DNA from: Caldilineaceae bacterium SB0661_bin_34
GTDB lineage: Bacteria; Chloroflexota; Anaerolineae; Caldilineales; Caldilineaceae
Assembly: GCA_009841145.1 (NCBI GenBank)
Contig: VXMJ01000071.1
Span: 1-64,000 of the forward strand
Direction: 5' to 3'
Length of the DNA stretch: 64,000 bases
Position 1 is the stretch's first letter, and each line of letters begins with the position of its first letter. The notes below the pieces were generated by a model that was not told the DNA's origin, did not search any database, and was given only the letters and a program-made list of their open reading frames with translations. The position numbers and the translations under genes are program-made. Below are positions 1,081 to 10,185 of this stretch, piece after piece.

Positions 1081-2172
1081 TCAGCGAGCCTGGTTCTCGG
1101 AAACAGACTGGCTGTTTCCCAACTTGATCACGGTACGCCAATGGATTTCCGGACGCTTCCAGTTGCGGATGCGCCAGATCCACCCCACCGGATATCCCGC
1201 CATCTTGGCCATGTCGCCCAGCACGCGAATCAAAGGCACCATGGACATGGCGGCCATCAGTTGCAGCGGCGTCATGCGGTATTGGCCAAGCTGTATGATC
1301 CGCGCCAACGGCCTGCGGCAATAGGCGGCAATCCCGGCTGTCAGACCCACCCAACCCAATCGTCGGCGCCAGGAACCGCCGCCGATGAGGGACAGCAGCA
1401 AGGGAATCAGCACGAGATAGGTCCCGTAGCGAATCGCATGGCGGCCGCGCCAAAGGTCGGCCTTGCCGTCGCCACGAGCATAGAGGTAGTACTGTTTGAA
1501 AAACGCCTTCAGGGACTCCCGAGGCGGAACCCGTACCACGGACAACTCGGCCAACGGCAGGCCCTTCACTCCGTCCGCCGCCAAATCCTCCATCCGGAGG
1601 TCGAACACCAAATCCTCGCAGTAGTCCAGCCACTCGGGAAAGCGACCGGCCTCTTGCCACGCCTGTCGCGTAAACAGCATTGAGCGACCGGCGGGAAGAA
1701 AGGTCTCGGGATCAACATCCCTCCTCAACGGCTGCGTGGTACCGGCCAGCGCCGTGTCCAGCACTCCTTTCACTTCCGGCAGGAAAAATCCGGCAACTCC
1801 TTGGACCGACGGCTCGCTGTCATGGGCTGCGAATGTTGCCACCAGCTGTTCCAGCCAGTCCGGTTCCGGCCGAATCCCGGCATCCGTGACCGCGATCAGG
1901 TCGTGGGTTGCGACCTCAATGGCACGGTTCCTTCCTTCGCTGATGTTGGCACCCTCGGCCACCAGCAGCGTCAACTGCGTGGCTGTGCCCTCCATGGACT
2001 GTTGCAACGCCCTGAGGCTGGACATCGTGTTATCGCTGCTGCCACCGTCACAGATCACGACTTCTGCCGGCACATGGGTTTGGTCCAGCAGCGCCGAGAT
2101 GACGGTCGGCAACGAACGACCTTCGTTGAGAACGGTCATAATGACCGACACATGCGGTGCTGTAGCGTTCAT
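1081..2172 (-). CDS. Family 2 glycosyltransferase, membrane anchored
   Basis: The 363-residue protein begins with a GT-A fold: VSVIMTVLNEG at residues 8-18, DGGSSDNT at about 42-49, and a TDAG variant of the DxD metal site at about 96-99. After the catalytic domain come two hydrophobic segments near residues 247-264 and 271-285, so it probably sits on the inner membrane. It should transfer a sugar from a nucleotide-sugar to a glycan or lipid acceptor, but donor and acceptor cannot be read from sequence. Its stop lies only about 60 bases from the IS607 tnpA start, so the element inserted at or just beyond its 3' end. The C-terminus looks complete, though a few terminal residues could derive from the junction. 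Confidence 0.8.
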   Translation of the reverse strand: MNATAPHVSVIMTVLNEGRSLPTVISALLDQTHVPAEVVICDGGSSDNTMSSLRALQQSMEGTATQLTLLVAEGANISEGRNRAIEVATHDLIAVTDAGIRPEPDWLEQLVATFAAHDSEPSVQGVAGFFLPEVKGVLDTALAGTTQPLRRDVDPETFLPAGRSMLFTRQAWQEAGRFPEWLDYCEDLVFDLRMEDLAADGVKGLPLAELSVVRVPPRESLKAFFKQYYLYARGDGKADLWRGRHAIRYGTYLVLIPLLLSLIGGGSWRRRLGWVGLTAGIAAYCRRPLARIIQLGQYRMTPLQLMAAMSMVPLIRVLGDMAKMAGYPVGWIWRIRNWKRPEIHWRTVIKLGNSQSVSENQAR

Positions 2173-2393
2173 TGGGTGCCTGCAGGTTGCCCTCTACGCA
2201 TCTCAATCGACGGAACCAAGGTGGATCCTAGGCTACAGTTTGGCACACAGGCATCCTTGGCTGCCGTCGGGCAAGCCACTTGGTTGCGGATGTTCACCCG
2301 ACCGCCCGCGGTGTGAGACAACCGCCGCACTTTCGGCCGAACCAAATCTCCGCTTCCCCACCTGACAACCGCTCAATTCCAACCCGACAACAT

Positions 2394-5243
2394 ATGAACC
2401 TGGACCAACTGGATTTGTTTGCCGAAGCCGTTGACAGAGAGCCGTTGGACCCGGTGCCGGCCAATCGCACCGTGTTTGCAGTGCTGGACCTGGAAACGAC
2501 CGGGCTGAGTCCGCGCGATGACAAGATCATCGAGGTAGGCGCCCTACGCTTTGGCTGGGAAACCTCCCTGGACACTCTGGATGCGGCCGATCGGCTTGAC
2601 ACATTGGTCAACCCGGGCATTCCGGTGCCTCGGGACGTAACTTCACTCACCGGCATTGCCGACGCGGATGTGGCCGACGCGCCGCCGATCGAACAGGTGG
2701 CTCCCAAAATCAGCGAGTTTCTGGCCACCGCCACCTGTTTCGTGGCCCACAAGGCGAGTTTCGAAACCTCGTTCCTGGCTGCGGCCGGCATTGACACGGA
2801 CCACATGCAGGTCCTGGACACCCGCGATCTGGTCGTGATGTGCCAGCCGTCCCTGATCACAACGTCGTTGCCGCGCGTGGCGCCATCCCTCAACCTGCCC
2901 GGCGGCGGCCACCGGGCCTTTGCCGACGCCCTGCAAACCGCCCAAATGCTGGCCCTGTTCCTGAACCGGAACTATCTGGGAGGCCTAAGCGACAACGTAC
3001 TCCTGACGATTCTGGGGCACACCCCCGAGACGTGGGGTCCCCGGCTGCTTTTTGTGGAGGAAGCCCTTGACCGCGGCATTGCCGACGCCCGGCCCCCCAG
3101 GCACCTGTACGCGGTGGACTTCGAACCCAAGTCGGGAAGCGCAAACATGGCGGCCAAATCCGCTGTGTCCATCCCCGACGCACAGTGCGAGGAGGCGGTC
3201 GCAACAGCCTTGGACGCCGGCCAGGCCCGGGTGCTCCCGGTAGTCCCGGATCCAGCCGCTACCCACGGCTTGGCCAAGGGGATATTGGCCTGGGCCGGCC
3301 AGGACGATCGCCGTGTGCTGGTCGCCGTACCCGCCCTGGCCGGTACCGGTGTTGTCGGGTCCCTGTGGGATGCAATCGAAGCCGTGGAAACCGGTCCAGC
3401 AGTGGCCTGTCTGATTGAACCCGAACGCCATGTGGACTTGCAACGCCTGGAAACCTGGCTGGCCGGACGGGTGCTGGACAACCGCCCCGCATCCAAGGAT
3501 TTTGGCGAGTCCAGGATGCTGGTGAAGCTCCTGAGTTGGATGACCCACATCGCCAGTTTCGGACGCCGGCAGCTTCGCTTTCTCAACCAGCATGACATGC
3601 CCATGCTGGCCCTGGACCAGAGTGTGCATTGGCCGGCCGTCAAGGGCGATGCCGATTCGGAGGTCGGGTCTCTGGCACCATCCGGAATTTCCAATCTGCC
3701 CGGCCACAACCACAACCTCGACGACGCCAACGTGGTTGTGGCGGACCATGCAACGGTCATCCACACTGCGTTGGAGGATCCGGAATTCGCCGGCGACTTC
3801 GACGCCATCGTAGTGGAGGATCTTTGGCATCTAGCGCGCATGGATGCCGAACGGGATCAGGAAACGCACACCTTGGGGGAACTCTCCCATCTGATGGACC
3901 GGGTGCAGGAGGCGTTCGGGGCGGATGCCGACACCTCGGCGGCCGCATGGCTGCCGGGCCGGTCCGACCTGACCATGTGTCTTCAGACCCTGGGCGATAT
4001 GCGCCGGACATCCACCAACACGCTCGCCCGCCTTGCCAATGTTGTGGCAGCAACCGCCTCGGAATTGCGGGAGCTGGACGGAAAGCGCGACAAGCGATGG
4101 CCTTCGGATCAGTCGCTCGACAGTTGCCGAATGGCCACGGCCTGGGGCGAGCTTGTCAATGAAGGCCAGACATTGATGGCTGCTCTCTCCAGGCTAACGG
4201 CCACACTCGACAATCTGCCCGGATTGTTCGGCAACGCCGCCGACAGCGATTCCCGCATATCGGGTTTGTGCTCCCAGGCCAGGCTGCTGAGCGCACAGAT
4301 CAAGCGGCTTGGGAACTTCCTCGAAGTGTTCCTGGCAAGGACGCTGACCACCGCCGAACCCAATGCTGTCTACTGGGTTACGGCCCGCAACGCCAATGCC
4401 GGCGACTACGAAACTGATCCGCTCGAACGGCTGGGGTTTAGCCGCACTGCGCTGCTGCCGTCTCAATTTCTGACGGAGGAACTGGAAACGCAAACCGACT
4501 CGCTCGTGTTGACGGCGCGTACCACTGCTTCGTGGGAGTTCGGAGATTTCGTAGCGGATCGCCTTGACATCGGAAACCTTCCGGTTGCGGTTCCGCCGTC
4601 GCCACCCCGGCGCGCAACGCTGCTGGTCGGTCCCACGGGACTGGACGCGACCAGGATCAACCAGATCCTCGCGGAACTGCTGGCCCGTCTCTATCCGCCC
4701 ACCGGCCGGTTCCTCACGGAAGGCTGCACGATCGTTGTACCGCCACCGGCCCGAACCGACGAGTCGGAGGCGGATCCGTTTCAGGGGATCAGCCAGGATC
4801 TGGTCCGTGTCGTCGCCGGCAACATGGCGCCGTTGGCGATCCGCCAAAAGCTTCTGCAGCCGGGACCGCACCTGTTGACCGGTTCCGTGCGCGACCTTGC
4901 ATCCCTTGACCTCGAATGCGTTGACGTCCGCCTGGTCGTGATCACACGCCTTCCCTTTCTCCCTTTCTCACATCCCGTCCAGGAGCAACTGGCCCGCAAA
5001 ATGAGCTCCGGCTACTCGAGCTTCATGGACTACACACTGCCGGAGTCGATTGCCACCGTCCAGCGCCTGGTCGACCTGACACAACATGCCTCGGGAGGCA
5101 AAGCAGCCGCCGTCCTCCTGGATCCCCGTGTGGAGGAGAAGCGATACGGGCCAGACTTCATGGACAAGGTCGCGTCCCATCGGACCTCCTCGCCGCCGGC
5201 ATCCCGCGTCGTGTCCACCGTACTGGACTGGTTGCAAGGATAG
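2394..5243 (+). CDS. DEDDh 3'-5' exonuclease fused to a degenerate DinG-type helicase domain
   Basis: The 949-residue protein carries a DnaQ-like exonuclease at residues 27-190: Exo I LDLETTG (D32, E34), Exo II AHKASFE (H119, with E124 where Asp is usual) and Exo III H173...D178. The rest follows the layout of Gram-positive-type DinG (XPD-like) helicases, but the ATPase motifs are gone. The Walker A position (about 284-292) reads VPDPAATHG, with no GxGKT. The DEAH position (475-478) reads EDLW, although the flanking VVADHAT and hydrophobic strand are kept. The C-terminal helicase lobe is recognisable (LPFLPFSHP, a YTLPESIA segment) but lacks the arginine-rich QGxGRxIR motif. I infer a nuclease with a structural, not motor, helicase body. 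ATG 2394 gives the family-like start; an upstream in-frame start at 2280 would add unrelated sequence. Confidence 0.8.
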   Translation: MNLDQLDLFAEAVDREPLDPVPANRTVFAVLDLETTGLSPRDDKIIEVGALRFGWETSLDTLDAADRLDTLVNPGIPVPRDVTSLTGIADADVADAPPIEQVAPKISEFLATATCFVAHKASFETSFLAAAGIDTDHMQVLDTRDLVVMCQPSLITTSLPRVAPSLNLPGGGHRAFADALQTAQMLALFLNRNYLGGLSDNVLLTILGHTPETWGPRLLFVEEALDRGIADARPPRHLYAVDFEPKSGSANMAAKSAVSIPDAQCEEAVATALDAGQARVLPVVPDPAATHGLAKGILAWAGQDDRRVLVAVPALAGTGVVGSLWDAIEAVETGPAVACLIEPERHVDLQRLETWLAGRVLDNRPASKDFGESRMLVKLLSWMTHIASFGRRQLRFLNQHDMPMLALDQSVHWPAVKGDADSEVGSLAPSGISNLPGHNHNLDDANVVVADHATVIHTALEDPEFAGDFDAIVVEDLWHLARMDAERDQETHTLGELSHLMDRVQEAFGADADTSAAAWLPGRSDLTMCLQTLGDMRRTSTNTLARLANVVAATASELRELDGKRDKRWPSDQSLDSCRMATAWGELVNEGQTLMAALSRLTATLDNLPGLFGNAADSDSRISGLCSQARLLSAQIKRLGNFLEVFLARTLTTAEPNAVYWVTARNANAGDYETDPLERLGFSRTALLPSQFLTEELETQTDSLVLTARTTASWEFGDFVADRLDIGNLPVAVPPSPPRRATLLVGPTGLDATRINQILAELLARLYPPTGRFLTEGCTIVVPPPARTDESEADPFQGISQDLVRVVAGNMAPLAIRQKLLQPGPHLLTGSVRDLASLDLECVDVRLVVITRLPFLPFSHPVQEQLARKMSSGYSSFMDYTLPESIATVQRLVDLTQHASGGKAAAVLLDPRVEEKRYGPDFMDKVASHRTSSPPASRVVSTVLDWLQG

Positions 5244-6401: not shown

Positions 6402-7598
6402 CTACCAGTCGCCCGGGCCCAGGACTCGGGCGCCGGCCGAAGCTTCGCTCACGTATACATCAGGTACCGGATAGTGGGCGTCGGGAAACTCCCGCACCAG
6501 CAGGTCCGCCATGTCCTGCTCCGCGCCCTTGGCCACCAGGGCTACGGCACATCCGGCGAAGCCGGCCCCGGTCAACCGGGCGCCAAAGCAGCCCGGTGAC
6601 GACATCATCAGCGCCACCATGCGATCCAGGGCCGGACTGCTAACTTCATAGTCGTCCCGCAGACTCTCGTGACTGGCGAACATGTGGGTGCCGGCCTCGT
6701 CCAGACGGCCATCTTCCAGACAGGCCGCGGTATCCCTGGTCCTCTGGATTTCGGTCACGACATGCCGGGCCCGCCGGTACAGAACGTCCCGGCCCCCGGT
6801 CCGCAACGGTTCCAGGTCGGCCAACTCCAGATCGCGCCATCCAGACACGTGCGAATGCCCGATGCGAAGGCTGGCCAGGCCTTCGTCGCACTGTGCCCGG
6901 CGCTCGTTGTAGGCGCTGTCGACCAGGGAACGGCTGGCCTTGGTGTTGCCGATGACGAGCACCGCGTCCGCCGGCACCGCGATCAGGTCGTATGCCAGGC
7001 TCAGGCAGTCAAGCAGCATGAGGTGTCCGGGTTCCGCCAGGACGGAGATGAACTGATCCATGATTCCGCAGTTCATGCCGACAAAGTCGTTTTCCGCCCG
7101 TTGCGCCAGTTGTGCCAACCGCTTCCCTGTCAGTTCCAAACCCGCGAGCCGACGAAGAGCCGTGCCGACGGCCACCTCCACGGCCGCGGAACTGCTCAGG
7201 GCATTTCCGATGGGCACATCGCTGGCGAGCACCATGTCCGCACCGGTCAGATCAAATCCATCCTCCCGGAGGGACCAAGCCATCCCGGCCGGGTAGTTCA
7301 GCCATGTCGGCCTCAATCTGGCGGCCGGCCGCAAGTCGGCTAGGCTGAACTCCCCGGTTTCATGGAAGGACACGGCACGCACGCGGACGCAGCCATCCCC
7401 TCGGGGCGCAGCAGCCACGCAGGCATTGAACCCGATGGCCGCCGGCAGGACGAAACCATCGTTGTAGTCCACGTGATCGCCAATCACGTTGACTCGGCCA
7501 GGGGCCATGGCCAGGAGTTTCGGCGTGCGCCCGCCGAAGACCTCGGAAAATACGGACAGGGCTTGTTGGGCGGGAGGTGGCAGCGTTGCGTCAGGCAT
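6402..7598 (-). CDS. galK: Galactokinase (GHMP family)
   Basis: The 398-residue protein should phosphorylate alpha-D-galactose at C1 with ATP, the first Leloir pathway step. Visible motifs are the galactokinase signature PGRVNVIGDHVDYN (residues 33-46), the GHMP ATP loop GNALSSSAAVEVAVG (131-145) and NCGIMDQFI with the expected catalytic Asp. The residue that is Glu in most galactokinases (GEHTDY) is Asp here, a conservative change that might affect sugar preference. Length matches the family. It lies 15 bases downstream of the Trm9-like methyltransferase on the same strand, so the two may be co-transcribed. No other Leloir genes are nearby. Confidence 0.9.
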   Translation of the reverse strand: MPDATLPPPAQQALSVFSEVFGGRTPKLLAMAPGRVNVIGDHVDYNDGFVLPAAIGFNACVAAAPRGDGCVRVRAVSFHETGEFSLADLRPAARLRPTWLNYPAGMAWSLREDGFDLTGADMVLASDVPIGNALSSSAAVEVAVGTALRRLAGLELTGKRLAQLAQRAENDFVGMNCGIMDQFISVLAEPGHLMLLDCLSLAYDLIAVPADAVLVIGNTKASRSLVDSAYNERRAQCDEGLASLRIGHSHVSGWRDLELADLEPLRTGGRDVLYRRARHVVTEIQRTRDTAACLEDGRLDEAGTHMFASHESLRDDYEVSSPALDRMVALMMSSPGCFGARLTGAGFAGCAVALVAKGAEQDMADLLVREFPDAHYPVPDVYVSEASAGARVLGPGDW

Positions 7599-7613: not shown

Positions 7614-8363
7614 TCAGGAACGCGTGTAGACAGAGTACAGGTTCAGGTGGCCATCCACACCGTCCGCCCGACGATGGAACAGGTTGCGGCATCCCGCATG
7701 TTCGCCCAACCAATCCATTTCCGCAGCGGTCGTTTCGTGCACGTAGCGCATGGCGCGCCGCCCCCGGCGCCAGGCAACCAGACGATCGCCTTCCTCCACA
7801 TCGGTCTCCGTCAGTCCAGCATCGGCCCAGTCCAAGAACTTGGCGCGTTCCCGCGGAGATCGCGACGGCTGCCAATTGCTTAACACCAGCAATCCACCAG
7901 ACCGGAGGCATGAACCAAAACCTGCCATCGCGCGGCGCCGGAGTTCCAGTCCGGGCAGATGGTGGAGGGTGGCAAGGCACAGGACCAGATCGTATTGAAC
8001 GGTGGCAGGCAACCGGTCAGGCCATGCGTCCAACGCCAGATCGGCCTCCACGAAGTCCAGTATCGGAACGGGAACCGCCAGCCGGCCGGCCCGGCCTGCG
8101 GCGAACTGCAGCATCGACCGATTGGAGTCCAGCCCGGTATACCGGGCCAGGGACAACAAGCCATGCAGCCAAACCAGGATGCGCCCGTTGCCGCATCCCG
8201 CGTCGAGAACGGCTGCCGGATGGCGGGCATGCCGCGCCAGCAGGTCGCTGCACGACAGCAACCCGGGCCACACCTGTCGACGGGTCTGGTCAAAGTCCTG
8301 CACTGAGCTTATGTAAAATTGACGGTTTAGGTCCAGCAGTCGGTCCCGAACTTCAGGCAACAC
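7614..8363 (-). CDS. Trm9/ALKBH8-like SAM-dependent methyltransferase
   Basis: This is a class I methyltransferase of about 249 residues. It starts with the pattern typical of Trm9-type tRNA methyltransferases, NRQFY...FDQTRRQVWPG (residues 13-34). SAM motif I is VLDAGCGNGR (52-61), motif II GLDSNRSML, and LCLATLHHLPG carries the family's double His. The C-terminus ends with GDRLVAWRRG, RYVHETTAAEMDWL and NLYSVYTR, again the Trm9 order. Eukaryotic Trm9 methylates the cm5U34 made by Elp3 into mcm5U, and here an elp3 gene stands divergently next door. GTG 8363 was chosen because a GGGGGAAG ribosome site precedes it and it begins at the conserved region; an upstream frame to 8489 would run across the intergenic region into elp3. 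Substrate assignment is inference. Confidence 0.72.
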   Translation of the reverse strand: MLPEVRDRLLDLNRQFYISSVQDFDQTRRQVWPGLLSCSDLLARHARHPAAVLDAGCGNGRILVWLHGLLSLARYTGLDSNRSMLQFAAGRAGRLAVPVPILDFVEADLALDAWPDRLPATVQYDLVLCLATLHHLPGLELRRRAMAGFGSCLRSGGLLVLSNWQPSRSPRERAKFLDWADAGLTETDVEEGDRLVAWRRGRRAMRYVHETTAAEMDWLGEHAGCRNLFHRRADGVDGHLNLYSVYTRS

Positions 8364-8384
8364 CGATTCTTCCCCCGGGTGCGG

Positions 8385-8393
8385 TGCTATAAT
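8385..8393 (+). promoter_or_regulatory. Extended -10 promoter for elp3
   Basis: TATAAT at 8388-8393 is preceded by TG plus one base, a perfect extended -10 element, about 70 bases before the elp3 ATG. No good -35 is visible, as is common for this promoter class. It lies in the roughly 100-base divergent gap between the methyltransferase GTG and elp3. Confidence 0.5.
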
Positions 8394-8463
8394 CCTGCGC
8401 CTTGGTGCACTGGGCAACAGCTTCGATCGCGTCGTCCGACCGGCAACTCCCGTCCGTTTTCCC

Positions 8464-10185
8464 ATGCCAGTCCGGCGCATTCTGCCCACCGAAGAAATTC
8501 CGGTCCAGGTACGCGACCGAACCGAGGAGTGGCGTCGGCAGCGGTTGGATTTTGATCCGGCCGAACACGCGTCTGCCCTTGTCTACATCTTCAGTGCGAT
8601 TGGGCAGGTCAAGGAAGACGACTGGGACGACCAGTCCTCGCTGCGGTTTATTTTGAGCCAAGTGCCCAAGGACGGTTCCGGATTCTATTCCAAGTCGAAT
8701 CTGGTTGCCGGCTACCGGTGGATGGTGGAGCAGGGGGACCTGGACGAGGATCCCGACCTCCTGCGCCGGATTCGCATGAAGCCGATGCGCACGGCCAGCG
8801 GAGTGGCGCCCGTAACCGTCCTGACGGCTCCCGCCGGTTGTCCCTCCGCCTGCATCTTCTGCCCCGACGACGTGCGGATGCCCAAGAGCTACATCCACGA
8901 CGAGCCGGGGTGCCAACGGGCCGAACAGGACGGCTTTGACCCCTTTCGCCAGACACTGGGCCGCATCCAGGGGTTTGAAAGCATTGGCCACACGGCCGAC
9001 AAGGTTGAACTGCTGATCCTGGGCGGCACCTGGAGCGCCTATTCGCGCGAATACCGCAACTGGTACGTTCAGCGGTGCCTGGACGCCATGAACTGTGGCG
9101 ACGGGTCGCACCATGCCCAAAGCCCATCCCTGGCCGTGGCGCTCGAACGTAACGTCTCCGCGCGGCACCGCAACGTCGGGCTGGTCGTCGAGACCCGACC
9201 GGACTGGATCACCCCGGACGAAATCCGCCATTTGCGCTCCCTGGGAGTCACAAAGGTCCAGATTGGGGTCCAGAGCCTCGACGACCGCATTCTCGAACTC
9301 AACAACCGGGGCCATACTGTGGCGGAAGTGCGCAGGGCCCTGGACCTGTTGCGGACTGCCGGATTCAAGTTGCATCTGCACTGGATGCCCAACCTGCACG
9401 GAGCCACGCCGGAATCCGATCGGCGCGACTTCCGCCGCTTCTTCAGCGACCGGTCCATATGTCCGGACGAGATGAAAATCTATCCCTGCTCGCTGATCGC
9501 GGGCACGGAACTCCACCGACTGTGGCAGCAGGGGCTATACCGTCCCTACACCGAAACGGAACTGGTGGATCTGCTGGCGGATGTCAAGCCGACCATCCCG
9601 CCCTATACGCGCATCAACCGACTGTTCAGGGATATTCCGGCACACCACATCCAAGCGGGAGTCCGAACCAGCAACCTGCGCGAAGTGGTGCAGCGCGAAC
9701 TGGCGCGGCGTGGCACCCCGTGCGGCTGTATCCGCTGCCGCGAAATCAGCCAGGCGCAAGTGGACCCGGATCGGCTGTCCATCGAGACCACACGGTACCG
9801 GACAACGCTTACGGAAGAGTTTTTCATTGCCTGCACCACGCCGGACCCGGAACCGGACCGCAGCGCCAGGCTGGTCGGTTTCCTGCGGCTCAGCCACATC
9901 CGGGAACCCGGCACGGGCAGCCATGCATTTCTGGACGAACTTTGCGGCGCCGCCATGATCAGGGAGGTCCACGTCTACGGAATGGCCCAGGGGCTCGGCC
10001 GGGGCCGGGCGGGAGCCGCCCAGCACGCCGGTGTCGGCCACCGCCTCCTGAACGAGGCTGCGCGCCTCAGCGCGGATTGCGGTTTCGACCGGCAGAGCGT
10101 GATCGCGGCCACCGGAACCCGTGGGTACTACGCGGCACGGGGATTCCGCCAAGGCGAACTGTACATGCACCGCGATCTGAACTGA
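8464..10185 (+). CDS. elp3: Elp3-type tRNA uridine(34) carboxymethyl synthase (radical SAM-GNAT)
   Basis: The 573-residue protein has the full Elp3 layout. A radical SAM core holds the Fe-S cysteines C126, C130 and C133 (APAGCPSACIFCPDD), followed by PKSY...EPGCQRA and the FDP motif. A C-terminal GNAT acetyltransferase domain follows (VHVYGMAQGLG, QHAGVGHRLL, GTRGYYAARGFRQG). Elp3 uses SAM radical chemistry and acetyl-CoA to add a carboxymethyl group to C5 of wobble uridine in tRNA; single-subunit bacterial and archaeal versions are known, including from Chloroflexota (Dehalococcoides). The tRNA-binding basic N-terminus is present (MPVRRILPTEE). It stands alone as a catalytic subunit, with no Elongator partners, and diverges from a Trm9-like gene. 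Confidence 0.92.
   Translation: MPVRRILPTEEIPVQVRDRTEEWRRQRLDFDPAEHASALVYIFSAIGQVKEDDWDDQSSLRFILSQVPKDGSGFYSKSNLVAGYRWMVEQGDLDEDPDLLRRIRMKPMRTASGVAPVTVLTAPAGCPSACIFCPDDVRMPKSYIHDEPGCQRAEQDGFDPFRQTLGRIQGFESIGHTADKVELLILGGTWSAYSREYRNWYVQRCLDAMNCGDGSHHAQSPSLAVALERNVSARHRNVGLVVETRPDWITPDEIRHLRSLGVTKVQIGVQSLDDRILELNNRGHTVAEVRRALDLLRTAGFKLHLHWMPNLHGATPESDRRDFRRFFSDRSICPDEMKIYPCSLIAGTELHRLWQQGLYRPYTETELVDLLADVKPTIPPYTRINRLFRDIPAHHIQAGVRTSNLREVVQRELARRGTPCGCIRCREISQAQVDPDRLSIETTRYRTTLTEEFFIACTTPDPEPDRSARLVGFLRLSHIREPGTGSHAFLDELCGAAMIREVHVYGMAQGLGRGRAGAAQHAGVGHRLLNEAARLSADCGFDRQSVIAATGTRGYYAARGFRQGELYMHRDLN

Follow-up and report, generated by a model that had tools for sequence, protein, structure and literature searches.

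Does a bacterial elp3 gene, together with the methyltransferase gene that lies beside it on the opposite strand, encode a pathway to the modified wobble nucleoside mcm5U34? Elp3 makes cm5U34 in tRNA, and Trm9 methylates the carboxylate to give mcm5U34 (PMC5372719, PMC6367351). Both enzymes are employed in this way by fungi and animals, and probably by archaea too. Of this group of U34 modifications, a review from 2020 assigns to bacteria only cmnm5U, mnm5U and nm5U (PMC7694415), and a review from 2017 states that the methyltransferases partnered by Trm112 have no detected bacterial relatives (PMC5372719). The gene pair is found in the window, by which we mean the whole 64,000-nucleotide stretch analysed from Caldilineaceae bacterium SB0661_bin_34 (contig VXMJ01000071.1). 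An earlier note, made from the sequence alone, had proposed a possible bacterial mcm5U34 pathway of Elp3 and a Trm9-like enzyme, encoded divergently and about 100 bases apart. The arrangement held: both open reading frames are where the note had placed them, separated by 100 bp. The features of the locus are listed in Table 1.

Table 1. Features of the elp3–methyltransferase locus (positions are those of the window).
Feature	Position	Strand	Remarks
Trm9-like class I SAM methyltransferase (P0001), 249 aa	7614..8363	-	GTG start at 8363, stop at 7614; ORF intact
HLNLY, residues 239-243	7635..7649	-	N241 would correspond to Sc N271
Two-stranded lid, strands 193-198 and 204-209	7734..7787	-	DSSP on the model; contains W198 and R206 (= Sc R241)
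LHHL, residues 133-136	7956..7967	-	H134 aligns with Sc Trm9 H115; H135 invariant
SAM-binding motif I DAGCGNGR, residues 54-61	8181..8204	-	
FDQTR, residues 24-28	8280..8294	-	R28 aligns with Sc Trm9 R29; conserved in 48/48 and 18/18
Divergent intergenic region, 100 bp	8364..8463	.	Nearly identical in two congeners
Elp3 (P0002), 573 aa	8464..10185	+	Radical SAM and acetyltransferase domains; ATG start at 8464
CPSACIFC, radical-SAM cluster cysteines	8839..8862	+	CxxxCxxC as in D. mccartyi Elp3; aligned with solved structures
CGCIRC	9721..9738	+	Matches the zinc-site cysteine motif of bacterial and archaeal Elp3; aligned with solved structures
QHAGVG in the acetyltransferase domain, motif for acetyl-CoA binding	10021..10038	+	Aligned with solved Elp3 structures

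The plus-strand gene of the pair encodes a genuine Elp3. Its product scores 468.4 bits against TIGR01211 over residues 95-571, where the cut-off of the curated model is 350, and its closest matches in the PDB are an archaeal Elp3 (E 3e-101) and the Elp3 of D. mccartyi (E 3e-95). The zinc cysteine motif of Elp3 has been described previously (PMC6367351). The QHAGVG motif is one that we take to bind acetyl-CoA, as is generally known of GNAT domains. Approximately 95 N-terminal residues (8464-8745) precede the part that aligns with the solved archaeal Elp3, and with the D. mccartyi structures the alignment does not begin until residue 106. While the identity of the gene is shown, the formation of cm5U34 in tRNA by this Elp3 is inferred, with no assay behind it. 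Elsewhere in the window, a DinG-like open reading frame of 987 residues (2280-5243, plus strand) contains an exonuclease domain of the RNase T type together with a weak helicase C-terminal match.

The methyltransferase is less easily named. It matches general methyltransferase models alone, and none of the curated family models gave a name above cut-off, either for this protein or for the fully listed member of the Dehalococcoidia family discussed below. The motifs that the earlier note had read in the order known from Trm9 are all present, including, in addition to those in Table 1, DRLVAWRRG (residues 193-201) and MRYVHE (residues 205-210). R28, H135, W164, W198, R206 and Y207 are invariant in 38 near-complete orthologues, and all of these but Y207 are present throughout a wider set of 48 sequences (48/48), hence the motifs are not a product of chance. 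One detail had to be corrected: the counterpart of RYVH in yeast Trm9 is RYYH, the second tyrosine of which is Sc Y243, a residue that matters for activity. The AF2 model is very confident (pLDDT 96.5, pTM 0.93). Two of its strands, 193-198 and 204-209, sit where the Trm9 sequence has its lid; in YlTrm9 this two-stranded lid covers the active site (PMC5372719). The placement of the strands over the active site of the window protein is taken from sequence position, not from coordinates.

Strong evidence for a functional link comes from conservation of the pair. Orthologues of the window methyltransferase were called in 61 related genomes at E below about 1e-14, versus 1e-8 and weaker for other methyltransferases, and were found in 44 of them. 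Elp3 is present in 46, a count that includes two genomes (G007 and G019) in which elp3 is truncated at the end of a contig and stays under the cut-off. All 44 genomes with the methyltransferase also encode Elp3, 44/46 genomes with Elp3 also encode the methyltransferase, and 15 have neither (Fisher p 2e-12, uncorrected for relatedness). The two genes are located on one contig and are divergent in 40/44 genomes, and lie on separate contigs in the other four (G010, G016, G054 and G055). The elp3 gene of G001 is interrupted by the end of its contig. The two exceptions, G045 (locus L161) and G057 (locus L162), encode Elp3 without a Trm9-like methyltransferase adjoining it or clearly elsewhere, and cm5U or ncm5U might be the end points there.

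The same arrangement recurs among 80 loci taken from named genomes of Caldilineaceae, Anaerolineales and other Anaerolineae. Both genes are contained in 57 of these loci and are divergent in every case (57/57), with a median gap of 171 bp. In the remaining 23 loci, either the sequence is too short or the flank, of up to 5 kb, contains no Elp3. These pair counts are likewise uncorrected for shared ancestry. In a sample of 201 genomes across the phylum, all strong orthologues of the methyltransferase (19/19) occur together with Elp3, and all belong to the class of the window. None of the whole genomes sampled was found to have an orthologue without also having Elp3. Conservation of the gene pair, which the earlier note had offered as a check on its proposal, was thus strongly confirmed in both co-occurrence and divergent arrangement. 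Both are shown, and they make it very likely that the methyltransferase is a functional partner of Elp3, a conclusion resting on genomic evidence only.

A referee may object that the methyltransferase belongs with its other neighbour. A galactokinase gene, galK (6402-7598, minus strand), is encoded on the same strand and starts 16 bp downstream of the methyltransferase stop, galK is found near the methyltransferase in 14/80 loci, and the top Foldseek matches of the model are sugar N-methyltransferases. It could be argued from this that the enzyme methylates a sugar or another small molecule and lies beside elp3 by accident. However, the galK link is mainly a feature of Caldilineaceae-type loci, whereas the Elp3 link is class-wide and recurs in Dehalococcoidia, and the absence of any orthologue without Elp3 in the sampled whole genomes also speaks against it. 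We regard this explanation as very improbable.

Elp3 is also distributed in a way that bears on its role. Across the 201 genomes Elp3 was found in 38 and MnmG in 83, and no genome has both, versus 15.7 expected by chance. Among the 61 relatives MnmG is over the cut-off in nine and MnmE is found in nine, and neither occurs in any of the 46 genomes with Elp3. This mutual exclusion is shown, and since neither MnmG nor MnmE ever shares a genome with Elp3, Elp3 seems to replace MnmE/MnmG. In four genomes (G039, G044, G046 and G060), and also in G030, which is 74% complete, neither Elp3 nor MnmG was above the cut-offs. At the limits used, G041 encodes MnmE but no clear MnmG, and G043 encodes MnmG but no MnmE.

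The earlier note had considered a methyl ester step as not established in bacteria. This has to be qualified, as CmoM is known to convert cmo5U34 to mcmo5U (PMC10516636), and a CmoM-type enzyme acting on cmo5U34 instead of cm5U34 is a further alternative. CmoM also forms a methyl ester on a wobble uridine, where R26 and R209 act on the base and the side chain it carries (PMC10516636), and the model of the window protein matches its fold (VIA-align Z 19.9). Against this, no match to CmoB, which makes cmo5U, was found in the window's own genome, and the linked gene is Elp3 rather than CmoA or CmoB. There is very little to recommend this alternative.

Elsewhere in the phylum, weak matches to the window methyltransferase were found adjoining Elp3 in further families, and these led to a second version of the pair. 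In all of the 18 loci examined (L143-L160) a methyltransferase is divergent from elp3; in L146, for example, the methyltransferase occupies 1397-2074 on the minus strand and elp3 2098-3486 on the plus strand. One of the families involved, that of G067, is identified as Dehalococcoidaceae because the crystallised Elp3 of D. mccartyi and that of G067 are nearly identical. The remaining families are inferred to be Dehalococcoidia, an inference that rests on G067 and on the close relationship of their Elp3 and methyltransferases. In sequence, the resemblance of this second methyltransferase to Trm9 is clear. A profile of the 18 sequences has yeast Trm9 (5cm2) as its top match in the whole PDB (E 5.7e-22), in an alignment extending through RYYHL of the lid; hhalign gives 99.6% for the family against Trm9, and the two are joined in a quick tree (SH-aLRT 91). 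The neighbour of elp3 in Dehalococcoidia is a good bacterial Trm9 candidate, its function being inferred.

The window family itself is more diverged than this Dehalococcoidia partner, too diverged to be placed. In hhalign its best match is the Dehalococcoidia family (178.7 vs 68-153 for 20 controls), and its score against a single Trm9 sequence, 117.6, falls inside the control range. A quick tree with controls did not join it to Trm9, with the backbone unresolved, and a clade of the window family, the Dehalococcoidia family and Trm9 was neither rejected nor shown in an AU test (p 0.44). The single window sequence reaches Trm9 only at E 0.035 in a phmmer search of the PDB; the family profile finds Trm9 at rank 8 (E 1e-8). 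Among the leading matches of this profile, Trm9 is the only one that aligns through the lid region (profile 38-221), the others stopping at or before 172. Structure searches gave a similar picture. In Foldseek, where the sugar N-methyltransferases are the best matches, 5cm2 is at rank 22 (TM 0.81, normalised by 5cm2 length). In VIA-align, Z is about 20-22 for METTL6, the glycine N-methyltransferases and CmoM alike, and 5cm2 is not among the 50 best-ranked rows. Neither the sequence nor the fold alone places the window methyltransferase nearer to Trm9 than to the other methyltransferases of class I. Whether close homologues group with unrelated small-molecule methyltransferases, which the earlier note had said would refute its proposal, has a split answer: the Dehalococcoidia partner groups with Trm9 and the window family cannot be placed. 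Fold comparison was dropped as a diagnostic for Trm9, the fold being common to many methyltransferases.

More specific information comes from single residues. Mutation of R29, H115, R241, Y243 or N271 in Sc Trm9 cripples tRNA binding and activity (PMC5372719). The corresponding residues of the window protein are R28, H134, R206, V208 and N241. In 48 window-type sequences the equivalents of catalytic R29 and R241 are kept throughout (48/48 each) and that of H115 in 40/48, with glutamine in the other 8/48; the lid tryptophan of Trm9 is also kept (W198). The conservation of these residues is shown. The position of Y243, of which the alanine mutant is impaired in Sc Trm9, has no tyrosine in any of the 48 sequences (V, C, A or I instead). 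At the position of N271, where the strand alignment is unsure, N is found in 21, G in 17, S in 8 and A in 2. In the Dehalococcoidia partner set the equivalents of R29, H115 and R241 are each present in 18/18, and Y243 has its tyrosine in 17/18. Six Trm9 signature positions are kept in all window-type (48/48), Dehalococcoidia-type (18/18) and Trm9 (2/2) sequences, compared with at most 4/6 in 20 control methyltransferases. These positions were partly picked with the compared groups in view, and the comparison is descriptive. The yeast Trm9 sequence used here was shortened and served as a lead, and its R29 and H115 match the published numbers; the Y. lipolytica Trm9 sequence was taken from PDB search output.

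Another possibility is that the methyltransferase acts with Elp3 on the anticodon loop and makes another product, such as a different cm5U derivative, a methylated base close to U34 (METTL6-like m3C32) or a 2'-O-methylation. In support of this, Y243 is not conserved and N271 varies in the window family, the tRNA methyltransferase METTL6 comes first by VIA-align (Z 22.3), and ncm5U accumulates in yeast trm9 mutants, showing that other routes from cm5U exist (PMC3110198). On the other hand, the Dehalococcoidia partner, which has the equivalent place next to elp3, resembles Trm9 in the PDB profile search and keeps R29, H115, R241 and mostly Y243, and VIA-align differences of less than 1 in Z are ties within a common fold. 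We consider another product unlikely. That the enzyme targets a translation protein or Elp3 itself, with the linkage being regulatory, is more doubtful still: it is supported by the shared divergent promoter region alone, and against it stand the Trm9-type lid and residues and the lack of any pointer to a protein substrate.

Eukaryotic Trm9 depends on Trm112 as its partner. A Trm112p domain match of 33.9 bits was found in the window's own genome. A clear short Trm112 was not found in seven other genomes bearing the pair (G009, G011, G021, G025, G028, G031 and G032), nor in Dehalococcoidaceae. In such genomes the enzyme may be independent of Trm112, or a short gene may have been missed.

Taken together, it is likely that Elp3 and the neighbouring methyltransferase constitute a bacterial cm5U34 to mcm5U34 pathway that replaces MnmE/MnmG. 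The proposal of the earlier note is supported to this extent, with function still inferred: cm5U as the substrate, the methyl ester as the product and tRNA as the target are all inferences without biochemical data. In the proposed pathway, Elp3 would use radical SAM chemistry and acetyl-CoA to place a carboxymethyl group onto C5 of U34, forming cm5U34. The methyltransferase, with R28 and R206 positioning the cm5U34 nucleotide, would then methylate the carboxylate with SAM as the donor, as yeast Trm9 does, giving the methyl ester mcm5U34. MnmA, which is encoded elsewhere in the window's own genome, would probably add the 2-thio group in some tRNAs, giving mcm5s2U34. The pathway would stand in for MnmE/MnmG, absent from these genomes. 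Evidence against an mcm5U product consists of the missing Y243, the variable N271, the two genomes with Elp3 only, the gaps in Trm112 and the galK neighbour.

A bolder reading is also possible, namely that the Anaerolineae methyltransferase is not a true Trm9 orthologue and took over, or was independently recruited for, the step after Elp3. Such an enzyme might work without Y243 and perhaps without Trm112. If so, bacteria would have two solutions for the cm5U methyl ester, that of Dehalococcoidia being of Trm9 type and that of Anaerolineae distinct from it.

No description of the elp3–methyltransferase pair was found in the literature searched on Trm9 and mcm5s2U in Dehalococcoides and the Chloroflexi, a search of titles and abstracts with most subscription papers outside its scope. 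If the mcm5U34 pathway is real, part of the Chloroflexota decodes by means of a wobble chemistry that has been regarded as belonging to eukaryotes and archaea, instead of that of MnmE/MnmG. The Elp3 of Dehalococcoides is a structural model for Elongator, and its natural downstream enzyme seems to be encoded next door. Furthermore, a small and perhaps Trm112-free Trm9 would make a simple system for study.

Among known systems, the window methyltransferase shares with Trm9-Trm112 and the ALKBH8 methyltransferase domain a partnership with Elp3, here inferred from genomes, and the class I fold, and with Trm9, the one of the two compared by sequence, the equivalents of R29, H115 and R241, the lid tryptophan and the two-stranded lid. 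It differs from Trm9-Trm112 in its bacterial host, in lacking Y243, in an unconserved N271, in a similarity that remains at a generic level and in having no Trm112 partner shown. In Sulfolobus solfataricus Elp3 and a putative Trm9 are clustered, and this archaeal pair resembles the window pair in that a gene of Trm9 type lies near one for a single-subunit Elp3 (PMC5372719); the window pair, in contrast, is bacterial, divergent and in place of MnmE/MnmG. CmoM of E. coli is a bacterial enzyme of similar fold that forms a methyl ester on the wobble uridine, but its substrate is cmo5U, it has no link to Elp3, and no CmoB was found in the window's genome. MnmE-MnmG modifies the same atom as Elp3, C5 of U34. 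Its chemistry, however, is unrelated, and in neither the 61- nor the 201-genome sample does it ever share a genome with Elp3. The Dehalococcoidia pair has the same divergent arrangement and provides the closest hhalign relative of the window family, but its methyltransferase is clearly Trm9-like in sequence and shorter, at about 210-230 aa.
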